Assembly (NCBI GenBank): GCA_016195095.1
Contig: JACQAE010000231.1
Coordinates: 1-44,065, forward strand
From: Pseudomonadota bacterium
Lineage (GTDB): Bacteria > Pseudomonadota > Alphaproteobacteria > Rhizobiales > Xanthobacteraceae
Length of the DNA stretch: 44,065 nucleotides
Reading direction: 5' to 3'
The notes beneath the pieces were generated by a model. It saw nothing but the letters and a program-made list of their open reading frames with translations. It searched no databases and had not been told where the DNA came from. Positions 14,416 through 34,552 of this stretch are shown piece after piece. Within the stretch, counting starts at the first letter, position 1; the number at the start of each line of letters is the position of its first letter. Made by a program: the position numbers and the translations under genes.

Positions 14416-14898
14416 TCATTCGGCGCCGCCGCCGCGCATGGCGTCGAGCGACCATGGTCCGCCGCCGCGCGCCAAGAAATGCATGGCAAGAAGAAAGAGT
14501 ATGAGCGGATATTCGTTGCCACGATTGATCCAGTTGAATCCGAACTGCCAATGGTAGATGACCGCCGTCGCCAGGAAGATCGCGATCGGGACGCAGACGG
14601 CGCGGGTGAAAAGTCCGGCGGCGAGACAAGCGCCACCCAGGGTCTCGGTCGTGCCGACGACGATGGCCCAAAACAGGCCCGGCTTGAAACCGGCCTGGGC
14701 GAAAAATTCGGCGTTGCGCTGCGTGCCGCCAAAGAGCTTGGGATAGCCGTGCATCACGAGCGCCAGCCCGCAAGCGAGCCGCACCAGCGCCTCGGTCGCG
14801 GGCGCCAGCAACCTTCCGGTCCGGTCGATGCCCGCGAGATTCGTCCGTAGCCGATTCCGCCAGGACTGCGTCGCCGGCGGCTTACGATTCGCTGGCAT
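14416..14898 (-). CDS. DoxX family membrane protein
   Basis: A 160-residue membrane protein with the DoxX arrangement of four helices: ALVRLACGLALVMHGYPKLFGG, LFWAIVVGTTETLGGACLAAGLF, AVCVPIAIFLATAVIYHWQFG and YPLILFLLAMHFLARGGG. DoxX proteins are variously subunits of quinone-oxidising or thiosulfate-oxidising systems or redox partners of exported oxidoreductases; the role here is not clear. ATG 14898 is chosen because GGAG lies about 10 bases before it and the next possible start is in the fumarylacetoacetase-family reading frame. The first 17 bases overlap the end of that gene. So it is translationally coupled to the homogentisate-degradation genes hmgA and FAH, and is probably cotranscribed with them. 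Confidence 0.87.
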   Translation of the reverse strand: MPANRKPPATQSWRNRLRTNLAGIDRTGRLLAPATEALVRLACGLALVMHGYPKLFGGTQRNAEFFAQAGFKPGLFWAIVVGTTETLGGACLAAGLFTRAVCVPIAIFLATAVIYHWQFGFNWINRGNEYPLILFLLAMHFLARGGGPWSLDAMRGGGAE

Positions 14899-15901
14899 AG
14901 CGCACGATCTCCTGGTCGATGGCGCCAAATATCGAGCGCCCCGAGGCGTCGTTCATTTCGATGCGCACGCGGTCCCCGAAGCGCAAGAACGGTGTCACCG
15001 GCCTGCCCGTGCGAATGGTTTCCACGGAGCGGATTTCGGCGATGCACGAATAACCGACGCCGCCTTCGGCTAGCGGTCGCCCCGGACCGCCGTCCGCGTC
15101 CCTATTGGATACCGTTCCAGAACCGACGATGGTTCCGGCGCCAAGCGGGCGGGTTTTCGCCGCGTGCCCGACCAGCGCCGGAAAATCGAACGTCATATCG
15201 ACGCCGGCGTTCGGCCGGCCGAATGGTGTCGCGTTGACACTGCTGCGGAGCGCCAGCGAGACCTTGGCGCCATCCCATGAATCGCCCAATTCGTCGGGCG
15301 TCACCGCCAGGGGTGAAAAGGAAGTCCACGCCTTGCCATGGAAAAATCCAAACCCCTTGGCGATTTCCGGCGCGATGAGATTGCGCAAGCTCACGTCGTT
15401 GACCAGTGTCAGCAACGCGATGCCCGCCGCGGCCTGTGCGCGCGATGCGGCCATGGGCACGTCGCGCAGGATCACAGCGACTTCGGCTTCGAAATCGATG
15501 CCCCATGCTTCCTCGGCCAACGCGATCGGCTCGGTAGGCCCGATGAAACTGTCGGATCCGCCCTGGTACATCAGGGGGTCCGACCAAAACGATTCCGGCA
15601 GCTCGGCTCCGCGTGCCCGGCGCACGAGTGCGACGTGATTGACATAGGCGGAACCGTCCGCCCATTGGTAGGCGCGCGGCAGCGGCGCGGCGCACCGCGC
15701 CGGGTCGAACGGCAAATGCGCGATGTGTTCGGCCTCGAGCGCATCGGCGATCTCGACGAGGCGCGATTGCGCCTGCGTCCAGGTGTCAAGCGCCGCCTGC
15801 ATTGTTGGCGCGACCATGCGAGCGTCGGCGCAGCGCGTCAGGTCGCGCGAGACGACGACAAGCTGCCCATCGCGGCCATGTTTGATCGACGCGAGTTTCA
15901 T
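14882..15901 (-). CDS. Fumarylacetoacetate hydrolase family protein
   Basis: Most likely the fumarylacetoacetase that cleaves fumarylacetoacetate to fumarate and acetoacetate, the last step of tyrosine degradation; it lies just after hmgA and near maiA. The FAH fold carries the Mg2+ site in GIDFEAEVAVIL and TLVNDVSLRNLIAPE, plus KGFGFFHGKAWTSFSPLAVT and GAGTIVGSGTVSN. With 339 residues it belongs to the long bacterial variant related to MhpD/HpcE-type enzymes rather than to the 420-residue animal form. ATG 15901 follows the hmgA stop by three bases. Substrate assignment is from context. Confidence 0.88.
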   Translation of the reverse strand: MKLASIKHGRDGQLVVVSRDLTRCADARMVAPTMQAALDTWTQAQSRLVEIADALEAEHIAHLPFDPARCAAPLPRAYQWADGSAYVNHVALVRRARGAELPESFWSDPLMYQGGSDSFIGPTEPIALAEEAWGIDFEAEVAVILRDVPMAASRAQAAAGIALLTLVNDVSLRNLIAPEIAKGFGFFHGKAWTSFSPLAVTPDELGDSWDGAKVSLALRSSVNATPFGRPNAGVDMTFDFPALVGHAAKTRPLGAGTIVGSGTVSNRDADGGPGRPLAEGGVGYSCIAEIRSVETIRTGRPVTPFLRFGDRVRIEMNDASGRSIFGAIDQEIVRYASES

Positions 15902-15904
15902 GCG

Positions 15905-17215
15905 CTAGCGCGGATCGCGGCGGTTTGGGTCGAAATGCTTCTTGAGGCCCGACCAGCAGTCGACATAATCGGCCTGCAGCGTATTGAGCGTCGCGGCGTA
16001 GCGGGTCACGCGTTGCCGGAACCGCGTTTCGAACATGAACGCCAGCGTATCGGTCAGTTTCACCGGTTGCAGCTCGGAATTGCTGGCGGCCTCGAATGCC
16101 TGCTCGTCGGGGCCGTGCGGCAGCATCGTATTGTGCAAACTCATGCCACCGGGAACAAAGCCTTCGGGCTTGGCGTCGTAGGTACCATAAACGAGGCCCA
16201 TGAATTCCGACATAATGTTGCGATGATACCAGGGCGGGCGAAACGTATTCTCTCCAACCAGCCATCGTTCGGGAAAAATGACGAAATCGATGTTGGCCGC
16301 TCCGGGTGCCTCCGACGGCGACGTCATGACAGTGAAGATCGACGGATCGGGGTGGTCGAAGGCTATCGCGCCGACAGGAGAAAACCGGCGTAGGTCGTAT
16401 TTATACGGCGCGTAATTGCCGTGCCACGCCACGACATCGAGTGGAGAATGGGGCACGCGGGTGCGAAAAATCTCGCCGCCCCACTTCACAATGAGCGCGC
16501 ACGGCACCTCGCGATCCTCGTAGGCGGCGATGGGGGTGAGGAAGTCGCGCGGATTGGCCAAGCAATTGGCGCCAATCGGACCGCGATCGGGGAGCGCAAA
16601 AGCGCCGCCATAATTCTCGCAGACATAGGCGCGTGCCGGGCCGTCCGGCAGTTCGACCCGGAATATCACGCCGCGCGGGATAATACATATCTCGCCGGGC
16701 ACAATTTCAATGACGCCGAATTCGGTGCAGAACCGCAATCCGCCCGATTGCGCGACGACGAGAAGTTCGCCGTCGGCGTCGAACATATGTTCATTGGTCA
16801 TTGACGCGGTCACCAGCGCGAGGTGACTTGCCATGCCGCAAAGGGCCTCGGCGTCGCCGGCGACGGTGACGGTGCGCAGGCCGCTCAAAAATGTCAGTGA
16901 TTCGCGTGGGATCGCCACCGGGCCCCAGCGCAGCTGCCCCAGGGGCAATTCGCTGTCCTCACGTTCCGGCGCCGTGCGGATATAATGGCGATCCACCTTC
17001 TCGAACCTTGCGGTGTGGCGCACGCTGGGTCTGATCCGGTATAACCAAGAGCGTTTGTTGACCGATTGCGGAGCCGTGAACGGCGTGCCGCTGAGCTGCT
17101 CGGCATAGAGGCCGTAATTCACCTTCTGCGGAGAATTGCGGCCGACCGGAAGGGCGTCTTGCAGGGCCTCCGTCTCGAAGCTGTTACCGAAGCCGGAGAG
17201 ATATCGAGGGTTCAT
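15905..17215 (-). CDS. hmgA: Homogentisate 1,2-dioxygenase
   Basis: Iron(II) dioxygenase opening the ring of homogentisate to maleylacetoacetate in tyrosine and phenylalanine catabolism. The family pattern is clear: [19 protein letters not shown] at the start, [56 protein letters not shown]. The iron-ligand region is [31 protein letters not shown], followed by [15 protein letters not shown], with the metal His and Glu residues. The length of 436 matches. I prefer ATG 17215, which has AGGGAA upstream, over the ATG five codons earlier. The gene diverges from marR across a MarR-type palindrome and leads the minus-strand operon hmgA-FAH-doxX. Confidence 0.97.
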
Positions 17216-17284
17216 GTGCCATTCCCTCATGTGTCACGACGCAATAGCGGCCGGCATGGATGCGGGATATTGTCTGGACACACA

Positions 17285-17304
17285 TTAGTTGCACGTGTAA
17301 CTAA
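17285..17304. promoter_or_regulatory. MarR-type palindromic operator
   Basis: TTAGTTGCACGTGTAACTAA is a 20-base near-perfect palindrome: arms TTAGTT / AACTAA with a CACGTG core and a single mismatched pair. It lies between the divergent hmgA and marR genes. It overlaps the AAGG ribosome site (17303-17306) of the marR GTG start at 17312, so binding by the encoded MarR-family protein could control both directions and itself. The palindrome is direct; the regulator is inferred. Confidence 0.65.
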
Positions 17305-17311
17305 GGTCAAC

Positions 17312-17851
17312 GTGACGACAGACATGGCGAACGAACGCGTGGCCCTCGAAAACACCGAGGAATTGGCCAAAAAGGCTGCCGCGACCGTATTGCGGCTCGA
17401 AGCCTTTCTGCCCTATCGGCTGTATCTTCTCGCCAACCTGTCGGCGCTGGCGCTTTCGCGAGTCTATAACGATCAATACGGCATTGGCATACCAGAATGG
17501 CGCGTGCTCGTGACGCTCGGCCAGTTCGGCGTGATGACGGGAAAGGCAATCGGCGCGCATACGCATATGCACAAGACGAAAGTGTCGCGCGCGGTCGCCG
17601 AGCTTGAAAAACGAGGGCTGTTGGCGCGCCGCACCAATCGCGAAGATATGCGCGAATCGCTGCTCTCTTTGACGCCGGAGGGACGCGCCACCTACGAAGA
17701 ACTCGCTCCGCGCGCATTGGATTTCGCGCGCCGGCTCGCTGAAGCGATCGATCCCACCGACCGCGCCGCATTCGAACGCGCGCTCGATCAACTGACCAAA
17801 CGCGCGGGCGCGCTGGCGGACGAAGCGGCGGCGGCGCGAAAACGCCAGTGA
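17312..17851 (+). CDS. MarR family transcriptional regulator of the homogentisate genes
   Basis: A winged-helix dimer regulator of 179 residues. The DNA-binding domain spans about residues 50-120: GIGIPEWRVLVTLGQFGVMTGKAIG, the recognition helix HMHKTKVSRAVAELEKRGLLAR and the wing RRTNREDMRESLLSLTPEGR. Two flanking helices form the dimer interface. The GTG at 17312 is preceded by AAGG with a five-base gap; ATG 17324 is a plausible alternative without a good ribosome site. It lies between hmgA (divergent) and maiA, so it most likely senses homogentisate or a related aromatic acid, by analogy with known MarR regulators of this pathway. A palindrome at 17285-17304 is the probable operator. Confidence 0.9.
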   Translation: MTTDMANERVALENTEELAKKAAATVLRLEAFLPYRLYLLANLSALALSRVYNDQYGIGIPEWRVLVTLGQFGVMTGKAIGAHTHMHKTKVSRAVAELEKRGLLARRTNREDMRESLLSLTPEGRATYEELAPRALDFARRLAEAIDPTDRAAFERALDQLTKRAGALADEAAAARKRQ

Positions 17852-17897
17852 TGATTCGATAGCGTACGCGGCCGCGCGCGGCCGCCAGGGAGGACGC

Positions 17898-18533
17898 GTG
17901 AAACTCTATACGTTTTTCCGTTCGTCGGCGGCCTATCGCGTGCGCATCGCCCTCAACGTCAAGGGCCTGTCATACGAGAAAGCGTCGATCCACCTGAGCC
18001 GCGGCGGCGGCCAGCAGCACGCGGATTCATTTCGCGCCGTCAACGCGCAGATGCGCGTTCCCGTCCTGGCATTGCCGGGAGGCGAAATCCTGACCCAGTC
18101 GCTTGCCATCATCGAATATCTCGAAGAAACCCAGCCACAGCCGCCGTTGCTGCCGCGCGACGCGATTGCCCGCGCGCGGGTGCGGGCGGCGGCGCAGCTG
18201 ATCGCGTGTGACATTCATCCGCTCAACAATACCTCGCCATTGCGTTACATCAAGAACGCGCTCGGCGCTGACCAGGCGGCGATCGACGCCTGGTATCGTC
18301 ATTGGGTGATCGCTGGCTTTGAGGCGCTCGAAACCATGCTGCGGCCTGGGCCTTATGCCTTTGGACCAGAGGTCACGCTTGCCGACATTTGCATTGTCCC
18401 GCAGGTTGCCAACGCGCGCAGATTCGGCGTACCAATCGATCGCTTCTCGAACATTGTTGCTATCGATGCCGCCTGCGCGAAACTGTCAAGCTTCGTCGAT
18501 GCCCGCCCGGACAATCAGCCAGACGCCGAGTGA
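17898..18533 (+). CDS. maiA: Maleylacetoacetate isomerase (zeta-class GST)
   Basis: Glutathione-dependent isomerase converting maleylacetoacetate to fumarylacetoacetate, between the hmgA and FAH steps. It opens with the thioredoxin-fold motif YTFFRSSAAYRVRIALNVKG, which contains the zeta-class SSxxxRVRIAL active-site pattern, then ILTQSLAIIEYLEE (glutathione-binding turn), IACDIHPLNNTSPLRYI and VTLADICIVPQVANARRF. The 211-residue length is normal. It starts with GTG 17898 after AGGGAGGA, and lies 46 bases after marR. The glutathione it uses is kept reduced by gor, also in this window. Confidence 0.96.
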   Translation: MKLYTFFRSSAAYRVRIALNVKGLSYEKASIHLSRGGGQQHADSFRAVNAQMRVPVLALPGGEILTQSLAIIEYLEETQPQPPLLPRDAIARARVRAAAQLIACDIHPLNNTSPLRYIKNALGADQAAIDAWYRHWVIAGFEALETMLRPGPYAFGPEVTLADICIVPQVANARRFGVPIDRFSNIVAIDAACAKLSSFVDARPDNQPDAE

Positions 18534-19607: not shown

Positions 19608-19630
19608 GCCGCCGGCTTCAGGCCGGCGGC
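19608..19630. terminator. GC-rich hairpin at the convergent eamA / cupin ends
   Basis: Perfect nine-base arms GCCGCCGGC (19608-19616) and GCCGGCGGC (19622-19630) around a five-base loop. The hairpin overlaps the last codons and stop of the cupin gene (19618). There is no T-run on either side, so it may be a factor-dependent or bidirectional terminator rather than a classical intrinsic one. Confidence 0.4.
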
Positions 19631-20097
19631 AGCGTCGCTTCAAGGAAGGCAGCGACACGCGCGTCCGCGCGTAGCCGCGCGATATCGGCCACGGTCGGCA
19701 ATTGCGGCCGGTCGCGTTGCGCATCGACCATGCACAGGAATCCCAGCGGCTCATCGCCTTCGGCGCAAAACTGGTGCCAGGTCATGGACGGAACGGTGAT
19801 GAGATCGAGATACTTGATAGCTTTCACCATGTCGCCGACCAGGCAGCTGCCGCGTCCGTGCAGCACCATGACCGCATGCATATGGTCGTGGCGCTCAAGC
19901 GTCGTAAATCCGCCGGCCGCGACAGCGAAATAGCGCAGCTCGCCAGCCATGCGTGGGTGCGAGAACAGGACCTGGCGCGTCACGGCGCGAAAAAGCGCGC
20001 GGTCGTCGTCCTTGTAGGGTCGCGGCTCGACGCCATCCCAGCCGAAGGCATCGCGGTCACCCTCCTTTTTGCAAAATGTGCGAAACGCCTCCGTCAT
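19618..20097 (-). CDS. Cupin domain protein paired with the RuBisCO-like protein
   Basis: A small single-domain cupin of 159 residues. Motif 1 is GGFTTLERHDHMHAVMVLHG, giving His70 and His72 as metal ligands, and motif 2 is ITVPSMTWHQF with His108. The normal Glu between the motifs is replaced by other residues (MHAVMV). It lies four bases after the RLP stop, so the two are translationally coupled. In Rhodospirillum rubrum an RLP-linked cupin (CupA) is the 1-methylthio-D-xylulose-5-phosphate methylsulfurylase of the MTA-isoprenoid shunt and gives 1-deoxyxylulose-5-phosphate. I recall that pairing from the literature; I cannot compare sequences here. The cupin fold is certain; the reaction is inference. 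Confidence 0.8.
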   Translation of the reverse strand: MTEAFRTFCKKEGDRDAFGWDGVEPRPYKDDDRALFRAVTRQVLFSHPRMAGELRYFAVAAGGFTTLERHDHMHAVMVLHGRGSCLVGDMVKAIKYLDLITVPSMTWHQFCAEGDEPLGFLCMVDAQRDRPQLPTVADIARLRADARVAAFLEATLPPA

Positions 20098-20101
20098 ATT
20101 T

Positions 20102-21205
20102 TCAGCTCGGTGTAAAGTTTTTGACTTCAGCGGCGAAATCGCTCGCGACCTGCGTCAGTCGTGCACCCGATTCCAGCAGGCCGCCACCAATGAGCACCAT
20201 GATATCGATACCATAGAATTCAAGCATCTCGCCGACGCGGTCCCGCGTCATTCCGCCGGCGGGGACCGGCGCCGTCGCTCGCAATCCGTGCCACTCCTGC
20301 CGTGCGGCGGTCGCAAGCTCGCGACACACGTCGCCAGAATAACCGAAGCGGCCGCCATGATTGGGAAATATTGTTGCGTCGGCGCCGAAAAGCCGGAAAA
20401 GCTTTCCCAGCAAAAGCGCGGGCGCAATGCGCGTCGCTCCCGCGAGCGCGGGATGGGCCAGAAACGCGAAGCCCGGATATGCGCGCGCGAGTGCCTGCAA
20501 ATTGGCCGGACCCGCGATCATCGGGGCGATCATCGCCGCGTCGATCCCATGATCGGTGGCAATCGCGATTTGTCGGCGCATATCGTCGAGACTACCGGAC
20601 AGGTTGGGCACATAACGCGAAACATGGCCTTCGGTCCTGGCAACCGCGTGCAACGCGCCGGCGATCGCCGCCACGCGCGCGGCAAAGGAAGCGGCGGCCT
20701 GCTCGGCAAGGCCATGGTCGTCCTTGATGTAGTCGATGCCGCCGCGCGCCAGCCGCGCGGCGAGGTCCGCGAGCCCCCCCGGCGTGAGACCCTGCGGTTT
20801 GAGCGCGGAGCACGTGAGCGCGCGCCCAGCGGCCCCGATGCGCGCGCGCAGGCCGGCGAGCCCATGCCGCGGCCCTCCAAACAAGGCCGCGTATTCGCTC
20901 GGAATGCGCACGTCCCGCAGGACGATGTCCGCCTGCAGCGACGAATTGCCGAACAGCATGTTGAGGAATTGTCCGGCGTCGCTCGTCGCGGACGAGGTGG
21001 CCAGATCGATGACGACCTCGTAGCTTTGTATCGCAATTTCTTCGATGGCCGCGACGCGGCCCACGACATTGACAAGGACATTCGCGTCGGCAATCGCGGA
21101 GACCGGCATCTCGACGCTTTGCTCGATAGCAAGGGCCATGGCGCGACGTTCAATTGCGCCGGCATCGCTACGGATGCGATAGACCGCCTGAAATCGTTGT
21201 TCCAA
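20102..21205 (-). CDS. RuBisCO-like protein (form IV)
   Basis: A 367-residue homologue of the RuBisCO large subunit that cannot fix CO2. Retained: Lys136 in SALKPQGL (RuBisCO K175), Lys161 in GGIDYIKDDHGL (K201) and the glycines IGGG 339-342 (phosphate). Lost: K177 is Gln138, E204 is His164, R295 is Pro252 in LAHPALAG, loop 6 is PNHGGRFGYS instead of GTxxGKxEG with its lysine, S379 is Ala316 in PVPAGGM. This substitution pattern is that of RLPs such as the YkrW and DeepYkr clades. The R. rubrum member isomerises 5-methylthioribulose-1-phosphate. The start is TTG 21205, since no ATG or GTG precedes it in frame and the next ATG (21139) would remove conserved strands. A small membrane protein gene lies 29 bases upstream and the cupin four bases downstream. 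Confidence 0.9.
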   Translation of the reverse strand: MEQRFQAVYRIRSDAGAIERRAMALAIEQSVEMPVSAIADANVLVNVVGRVAAIEEIAIQSYEVVIDLATSSATSDAGQFLNMLFGNSSLQADIVLRDVRIPSEYAALFGGPRHGLAGLRARIGAAGRALTCSALKPQGLTPGGLADLAARLARGGIDYIKDDHGLAEQAAASFAARVAAIAGALHAVARTEGHVSRYVPNLSGSLDDMRRQIAIATDHGIDAAMIAPMIAGPANLQALARAYPGFAFLAHPALAGATRIAPALLLGKLFRLFGADATIFPNHGGRFGYSGDVCRELATAARQEWHGLRATAPVPAGGMTRDRVGEMLEFYGIDIMVLIGGGLLESGARLTQVASDFAAEVKNFTPS

Positions 21206-21234
21206 GAATGACCCGATATGCGCGAACGCGGAAA

Positions 21235-21567
21235 TTATCCGGCTGGTGAATGATCCAGCGTATCGCGCATCGCCGCTTCTGCCGCGCGCGCGTTGATGCG
21301 TTCGGATATCAGGTCAATTGCCGTGAGCGTCGCCATGATGGCGCACCAGACCAGGAAGGCGCTGAGCAGCATCAGGGGTACGACCGCCGTGAGCCCAGCG
21401 GTCGCCAACGTCAGCAATATGAACCCAAAGGTTCCCAGCCGGTCGAAGCACATTCTGCCACGCTTGCCGGCAGCGATGAATACCGTTCGCCCAGCGCCGG
21501 GACGTGTCACGCGCACTGGGAAGGCGATAACGCGCGGCTCTTCTTGGGAAGTAGGAAATTGCGTCAT
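21235..21567 (-). CDS. Small membrane protein of unknown function upstream of the RLP
   Basis: A 110-residue protein with a hydrophilic N-terminus, then two hydrophobic helices: GTFGFILLTLATAGLTAVVPL and MLLSAFLVWCAIMATLTAIDLI. The C-terminal tail (SERINARAAEAAMRDTLDHS) is amphipathic. I do not recognise a family. AGGTGG precedes ATG 21567. It is on the same strand 29 bases before the RLP and ends just upstream, so it may belong to the same transcript, but a role in the same pathway is unproven. Confidence 0.65.
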   Translation of the reverse strand: MTQFPTSQEEPRVIAFPVRVTRPGAGRTVFIAAGKRGRMCFDRLGTFGFILLTLATAGLTAVVPLMLLSAFLVWCAIMATLTAIDLISERINARAAEAAMRDTLDHSPAG

Positions 21568-33352: not shown

Positions 33353-34552
33353 TCATGACACGGCCGCGAGCGCGGCAAATCCACATTCAAGATCGGCGAT
33401 CAGGTCGGCCACATCCTCAAGCCCGACGTGGATGCGAATGGTGGGCCCGCCTGGCGCCCACCGCGTCGCGGTGCGAAAGGCGCCGCAATCGAATGGAATG
33501 GCGAGGCTCTCGTATCCTCCCCAGGACGCGCCGATCCCAAAAAGTGTGAGCGTATTGAGGAAGGCATGTGCTGCCGCCACCGGAACCGGCCGCAACACGA
33601 CGCTGAAAAGCCCGCTCGCGCCGGTGAAGTCACGCCGGAACAGCTCATGGCCCGGATGCGTCTCGAGCCCTGGATGCATGACGTGCAAGACTTCCGCGCG
33701 CGCCGCCAGCCAGCGGGCAATATACAGGCCGGATTCCTGATGGCGGGCAAGGCGCACGCTCATCGTGCGTAGGCCACGCAGCCCGAGATACAGATCATCG
33801 GGGCCGGCGCATAGGCCAAGCGCGCCGACGGTTTCCTTGACCCGCGGCCACACCCCGGAGTTTGCGCTCAGCGTTCCCAGCATTAAATCGGAATGGCCGC
33901 CGATATATTTGGTCGCCGCCTGGATCGACAGATCGACCCCTTTCGCCAATGCGTCGAAATAGAGCGGCGTCGCCCAGGTGTTGTCCATGATCACCACCGC
34001 GTCGCGCGCATGCGCGGCACGGGAAATGGCGGGGATGTCCTGTATTTCGAAGGAGAGCGAACCTGGCGATTCGACAAATACCGCACGCGTGTTCGGTCGC
34101 ATGAGACCGGCTACCGCGCCGCCGACGAGCGGGTCGTAATAGGTCGTGGATATGCCAAATCGTGGCAATACGCCGTCGCAAAATTTGCGCGTCGGCAGGT
34201 AGACGCTGTCAGTGACCAGGACATGGTCGCCGGCGTTCAACGTGGACAGAAGCGCGACCGTGACGGCAGCAAGCCCGGAGGGCACAAGCGCGACCCCCGC
34301 GCACAGCTTGCCTTCAATGGCGCGCAATGCCTCTTCGAACGCCTCCGATGTCGGCGTGCCGCGGCGCCCGTAAACATATCGCGCGCGGTGCGCGAGGAAG
34401 TCCTCGGCGGTCGGGTAAAGCACCGTTGAGGCGTGCACCACCGGTGGATTGACAAAGCCATGGAAAGACTGCGGATCGCGACCGCCGGTGACCAGCCGTG
34501 TATCCGGCCGCGTCGCGCCGATATCAGGCTCTTCGCCTCTGTTCTTGTTCAT
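33353..34552 (-). CDS. metC: Cystathionine beta-lyase
   Basis: PLP enzyme cleaving cystathionine to homocysteine, pyruvate and ammonia in methionine synthesis. The Cys/Met-metabolism fold is clear: YGRRGTPTSEAFEEALRAIEG, VPSGLAAVTVALLSTLNAGDHVL, SVYLPTRKFCDGVLPRFGI, MDNTWATPLYFDALAKGVDL. The PLP lysine is in QAATKYIGGHSDLMLGT. C-terminal part IRIHVGLEDVADLIADL is typical. 399 residues. It lies divergent from aapJ with a 466-base shared upstream region. A related sulfhydrylase or gamma-lyase activity cannot be excluded, but the residue pattern is closest to MetC. Confidence 0.94.
   Translation of the reverse strand: MNKNRGEEPDIGATRPDTRLVTGGRDPQSFHGFVNPPVVHASTVLYPTAEDFLAHRARYVYGRRGTPTSEAFEEALRAIEGKLCAGVALVPSGLAAVTVALLSTLNAGDHVLVTDSVYLPTRKFCDGVLPRFGISTTYYDPLVGGAVAGLMRPNTRAVFVESPGSLSFEIQDIPAISRAAHARDAVVIMDNTWATPLYFDALAKGVDLSIQAATKYIGGHSDLMLGTLSANSGVWPRVKETVGALGLCAGPDDLYLGLRGLRTMSVRLARHQESGLYIARWLAARAEVLHVMHPGLETHPGHELFRRDFTGASGLFSVVLRPVPVAAAHAFLNTLTLFGIGASWGGYESLAIPFDCGAFRTATRWAPGGPTIRIHVGLEDVADLIADLECGFAALAAVS

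Follow-up and report, generated by a model that had tools for sequence, protein, structure and literature searches.

What does a RuBisCO-like protein (RLP) encoded directly ahead of a cupin do in this uncultured alphaproteobacterium, and does the small gene in front of the two belong with them? The window, by which we mean the whole stretch of 44,065 nucleotides that was analysed, carries these three genes on its minus strand, and their positions and spacing are as given in the preliminary description, where the RLP and the cupin were taken as a possible MTA-isoprenoid shunt. In the order of reading they are a 110-aa two-helix protein without a named family (21235-21567, minus strand, ATG at 21567), the RLP (20102-21205, minus strand, 367 aa, TTG start) and the cupin (19618-20097, minus strand, 159 aa, ATG start). 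The end of the two-helix ORF lies 29 bases from the RLP start and only four bases (20098-20101) separate the RLP from the cupin. The TTG start of the RLP is plausible because its alignment with the PDB entry 3qfw opens at residue 2, and the ATG at 21567 is consistent with the starts of the relatives of the two-helix protein. Spacing and strand alone make a single transcript likely. A consensus scan gave no promoter-like site where 1.1 were expected and three terminator-like sites, all on the plus strand, where 3.7 were expected, which is no excess over chance. A riboswitch ahead of the operon was also considered and was rejected, for Rfam at gathering scores returned one tRNA only in the whole window.

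The upstream neighbor of the three genes is a divergent alpha-2-macroglobulin-like gene, and past the cupin there is a convergent gene for an EamA-type transporter. Further along lies a homogentisate set (14882-18533), whose minus-strand genes encode HgmA and a fumarylacetoacetase-family protein and whose plus-strand genes encode a MarR regulator and maleylacetoacetate isomerase. At 33353-34552 on the minus strand there is a 399-aa ORF, overlapped by two matches to O-acetylhomoserine sulfhydrylase that are below the cut-off; its product is probably a different kind of PLP enzyme of Cys/Met metabolism.

Identity of the RLP and the cupin

The best PDB sequence match of the RLP is 3qfw (395.7 bits, residues 2-364), followed by a YkrW enolase at 106.7 bits. 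The structure model of the RLP (mean pLDDT 95.3) agrees with this because it superposes on 3qfw with a Z score of 50.3 and an rmsd of 1.3 over 350 residues at 55% identity, the next structure being 2oem, a YkrW, with a Z score of 44.5 and 27% identity. The title of 3qfw names it as a RuBisCO-like protein of Rhodopseudomonas palustris. We take it to be RPA2169, the R. palustris RLP1, because the other RLP of that organism, rlp2, is 2qyg, to which the window RLP is 23% identical.

Elsewhere in the genome there is a RuBisCO match far stronger than the RLP, and this RuBisCO served as the reference for an alignment of the active site, in which residue numbers follow what we take to be the spinach numbering. 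Three residues are retained in the RLP, namely, K175 as K136, K201 as K161, and H294 as H251, while K177 is replaced by Q138, E204 by H164, R295 by P252, and S379 by A316, and in loop 6 K334 is replaced by R286. All the residue claims of the preliminary description, that Lys136 and Lys161 are kept and five other positions are replaced, are thus seen in this alignment. The window RLP is the same as 3qfw at 15 of the 16 RuBisCO positions compared, the exception being the H327 position, which is Ile in the window and Val in 3qfw.

A tree of 59 rows was built from the window RLP, 40 of the 78 RLP loci described below, 3qfw, three YkrW proteins, and 14 others, and was rooted at its midpoint. The window RLP and 3qfw share a set of 31 rows (support 96/89) that is nested in one of 41 rows (93/98). 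The set of the window RLP includes none of the YkrW (three), OiaX-like (four), or RuBisCO (two) rows, and the reading of the RLP as a true RuBisCO was rejected on this placement. The closest kin of the window RLP is weakly placed (with L031, 87/48), and L103, L089, and a Vibrio row have long branches. The RLP is of the DeepYkr type, and we predict that it is a 5-methylthioribulose-1-phosphate 1,3-isomerase.

The cupin matches 3jzv, listed as the uncharacterized protein Rru_A2000, best among PDB sequences (173.6 bits), and after it 3kgz and 3ibm. Rru_A2000 has been reported to be the methylsulfurylase of Rhodospirillum rubrum (PMC4958253). By structure the cupin model (mean pLDDT 89.8) fits 3kgz (Z score 21.9, 50% identity) and 3jzv (Z score 21.3, 55% identity) equally well. 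H70, H72, H74, H108, and C122 are invariant in all 25 aligned cupins and likewise present in Rru_A2000, and we infer that the histidines are metal ligands and that C122 is the active-site cysteine. The cupin is accordingly a predicted 1-methylthioxylulose-5-phosphate methylsulfurylase of the Rru_A2000 kind. The bit scores of the two best matches, 395.7 for the RLP and 173.6 for the cupin, argue that they are not due to chance.

Partner genes and alternative routes

If the two enzymes act here as they do in their relatives, MtnP would phosphorolyse MTA and MtnA would isomerise the product to 5-methylthioribulose-1-phosphate. The RLP would then shift the carbonyl in a 1,3-isomerisation that yields 1-methylthioxylulose-5-phosphate, from which the cupin would transfer the methylthio group onto glutathione, so that 1-deoxyxylulose-5-phosphate remains and can enter the MEP route to isoprenoids. 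The methanethiol released could serve O-acetylhomoserine sulfhydrylase as a substrate from which methionine is formed again.

The assembly (3.81 Mb in 307 contigs, 96.19% complete) has the genes that this scheme needs. Both mtnP (524.3, cut-off 437) and mtnA (399.3, cut-off 279) are present, on separate contigs neither of which is the RLP contig, and O-acetylhomoserine sulfhydrylase has two matches (614.7 and 606.7, cut-off 495.1). The dxs gene was found with its neighbors (752.8, cut-off 465.95), and therefore the shunt would feed the MEP route alongside Dxs and not in place of it. There was no match to acireductone dioxygenase (ARD, mtnD) in this assembly, and none of the seven aldolase-II proteins of the genome reached the mtnB cut-off, six having no match at E 1e-15 and the seventh scoring 26 of the 137.05 bits. 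ARD and the mtnB product, methylthioribulose-1-phosphate dehydratase, both belong to canonical methionine salvage. The lack of ARD by itself says little because ARD is rare in the whole group, being over the cut-off in 2 of 61 genomes and giving any match in 11. Thus, the clade of the RLP, the match of the cupin to the R. rubrum protein, the presence of mtnP and mtnA, and the results with mtnB and mtnD, all of which the preliminary description had named as checks, bear out its reading, and it is very likely that the RLP and the cupin together carry out the committed steps of the MTA-isoprenoid shunt.

The alternative that survives best is compatible with the shunt. The pair may work and MTA may yet be used mainly through an Ald2-type aldolase, in a DHAP-methanethiol or DHAP-ethylene shunt such as R. 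palustris also has with its Ald2, RPA4655, and the seven aldolase-II proteins of the genome are candidates for such an enzyme. R. palustris without the RLP or the cupin is reported still to grow on MTA, and growth becomes very poor only when the RLP and Ald2 are both gone (PMC5893883). However, the same source has most of the methanethiol coming from the RLP-cupin branch, because 4-to-5-fold less is formed without rlp1 or the cupin whereas about 75% remains without ald2. We consider a predominance of the aldolase route here unlikely, although it deserves to be kept in mind.

It is very improbable that the RLP acts on another sugar phosphate, as an apionate-type OiaX or a similar enzyme, with the cupin as a sugar-phosphate isomerase or dioxygenase. 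RLP chemistry may serve further sugars too, as the settings of L108 and L109 suggest, where RLPs outside the RLP-cupin set adjoin transketolases, a kinase, and oxidoreductases and where no mtn genes are annotated. The window RLP, however, scores only 62 of the 700 bits needed for OiaX, and the four OiaX-like relatives, one of which reaches the OiaX cut-off, branch with RuBisCO and away from it. On the side of the cupin, the next PDB match past 3jzv, 3kgz, and 3ibm is at only E 0.0061. That the RLP is the 2,3-diketo-5-methylthiopentyl-1-phosphate enolase (YkrW/MtnW) of canonical methionine salvage is hardly credible, for although the YkrW models are its best NCBIfam matches it scores 149.4 bits where 409 are needed, the YkrW rows are outside its clade, it has His and not Glu at the E204 position, and the genome lacks a detectable ARD and any aldolase-II protein at the mtnB cut-off.

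Distribution of the RLP-cupin pair

One scan of contigs gave 78 RLP loci, 74 of which have at least 250 bp left past the RLP. A cupin gene is directly downstream and on the same strand in 70 of these 74, the exceptions being L089, L096, L099, and L048, which with 281 bp left is no real test. It is also downstream in all eight loci of the relatives, at least two of these contigs being also among the 78. The record titles of the 78 loci include Alpha-, Beta-, and Gammaproteobacteria, Meiothermus, an actinobacterium, and Rhodohalobacter. In bacterium RI_361 (L095:4887-6581) the RLP and the cupin are in one open frame of 564 aa, a natural fusion, and on a plasmid of Terrarubrum flagellatum (L105:5998-8545) the RLP and cupin are found with cysE. 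Among 61 genomes, this one and 60 relatives, nine have an RLP that scores 390 bits or above and all nine have mtnA over the cut-off, compared to 26 of the remaining 52 (p ~0.004, worked by hand and uncorrected for kinship).

When the ORFs of the 78 loci were clustered at E 1e-8 and 60 bits, a threshold that would miss short and fast-changing proteins such as the two-helix protein, no third gene common to most of the loci was found. The RLP, the cupin, and frames over these make up most of the two largest clusters. The third (36 loci) is a chain of shadow frames joined to genes that by eye are enoyl-CoA hydratase-like, and the fourth (21 loci) is ABC-transporter ATPase-like by eye and distant from the pair. 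Genes named by eye as enoyl-CoA hydratase-like are near the pair, on either side, in 14 loci, and in L090:6611-7414 and L093:6714-7514 such a gene is directly 3' of the cupin. The gene that overlaps or abuts the RLP start varies with the lineage, being by eye CoA-ligase-like in Acetobacteraceae and ABC-permease-like in Betaproteobacteria. No EamA gene accompanies the pair in any of the 78 loci at E < 1e-3, but on the Terrarubrum plasmid two DMT-transporter CDS lie on the opposite strand some 1.5 kb past the cupin.

The pathway cannot be told from the RLP alone because the related loci L089, L096, and L099 have no cupin in the stretch examined. In Oryzibacter oryziterrae (L089:2327-7229) mtnK, a glycerol-1-phosphate-dehydrogenase-like gene, the RLP, and a PfkB kinase gene are together, with no cupin in that stretch. 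An RLP of a neighboring clade occurs with mtnA and a split transketolase and without a cupin in L106:1695-7119 from a Rhizobium plasmid, L107:1-5119, and L096:1984-6874, two of which also have mtnK; in L096, from Anaerolineae, mtnA, the transketolase pair, the RLP, and a phosphorylase were found, and no cupin in the 7 kb examined. Plasmid records with an RLP match number 24, and in 23 of them the RLP is 29-39% identical to that of the window. In all four of these 23 that were opened a split transketolase is directly upstream of the RLP, and two of the four clusters start with mtnK and mtnA. We infer that 1-methylthioxylulose-5-phosphate could be a substrate of a TPP enzyme, which would cleave it to glyceraldehyde-3-phosphate and a C2 fragment from which methanethiol is then lost, and the clusters of the neighboring clade may thus represent a thiamine-diphosphate-dependent branch of MTA salvage. 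Our search of the literature, which was largely of papers open without subscription, found no paper title on transketolase with RLP or methylthio. A promiscuous transketolase is described in 5-deoxyadenosine salvage, RuBisCO being unnamed in the available part of that source (PMC8102628), and the main text of a paper on a rhizobial RLP has neither transketolase nor methylthio (PMC8914248).

The two-helix protein and comparison with known systems

The 110-aa protein has a hydrophobic stretch at residues 44-89 that we read as a two-helix hairpin. It has no match near any cut-off in Pfam or NCBIfam, and tblastn gave none better than E 0.72 in the 78 loci. A profile search found relatives ahead of the RLP in L027, L035, and L041 (gaps of 21 to 51 bp), which are all of one genus, g9, with weaker matches in L029 and L118. 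G008, G075, G101, and G035 are the genomes that contain L027, L035, L041, and L028, respectively. There is a match in 65 of the 248 genomes of the family. Among the 30 loci returned, 16 have mtnA in their 1.5-kb flanks (14 from genus g29 and 2 from g6, the flank in L162 including only the far end of mtnA), three including the window have RLP and cupin, and 11 have neither, though in two of these 11 a distant RLP, 29-30% identical, is nearby on the other strand. In G005 the order is mtnP, mtnA, two-helix protein. A search of 44 loci showed ispG, whole or in part, next to the second copy in this genome and next to copies in G008, G075, G101, and G061. The neighbors at 16 further loci are by eye mostly without evident relation. 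RLP-linked, mtnA-linked, and unlinked members all went into the profile, whose ranking is therefore not unbiased, and close relatives cannot be counted as independent. Most RLP-linked copies stand apart from the main family in a tree, with weak basal support.

For the suggestion in the preliminary description that the two-helix protein might be part of the unit there are thus hints and no more. Its relatives lie before the RLP in g9, behind mtnA in two genera, and behind ispG in five genomes, which is suggestive, but others adjoin unrelated genes and the protein is not in the conserved unit. A functional link to MTA and isoprenoid genes is possible. Since the relatives adjoin RLP-cupin, mtnA/mtnP, and ispG, three steps of one route, the protein could have a genuine membrane role in the MTA and isoprenoid metabolism of the family, but we hold this to be improbable; if it were true, the protein might tether these soluble enzymes at the membrane or handle the volatile thiol. 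Next to the second copy in this genome (L178:4800-6539) ispG is open in two overlapping frames, perhaps from an assembly error, and in G008 (L144:5389-8378) a full ispG is followed by a second C-terminal piece of ispG and then by the two-helix protein.

The shunt, both of its enzymes, and their pairing have been published already (PMC5893883, PMC4958253, PMC6302742, PMC4334135), and a survey counts both enzymes by KOfam profiles (PMC10663253). The gene pair in the window is an ordinary further copy of this known system, which was demonstrated in purple bacteria. The uncultured alphaproteobacterium that carries it is one more that probably converts MTA to methanethiol and an isoprenoid precursor, and the RLP and cupin genes remain adjacent across many bacteria. 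Two small questions are raised, namely, the role of the two-helix protein and that of the transketolase beside related RLPs where the cupin is missing. The RuBisCO fold is common to the window RLP and the YkrW/MtnW enolase, as the match to 2oem shows, but at 27% identity the enolase is outside the clade and has Glu where the window RLP has His at the E204 position. Compared to the R. rubrum shunt (Rru_A1998 and Rru_A2000), the likeness lies in the cupin, 55% identical to Rru_A2000, the RLP having been measured against that of R. palustris and not of R. rubrum. The mtnA and mtnP genes of R. rubrum are Rru_A0360 and Rru_A0361 (PMC4958253), whereas here the two genes are on separate contigs. R. 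palustris, which is reported to have the shunt plus a putative mtnD (PMC5893883), differs from the window in that a two-helix gene precedes the RLP only in the latter. In both, however, the two shunt genes are paired, as RLP1 (RPA2169) and cupin (RPA2170) in R. palustris, and the RLP is like 3qfw in 55% of its residues and nearly all of the active-site positions compared while the cupin is 50% identical to 3kgz of R. palustris.
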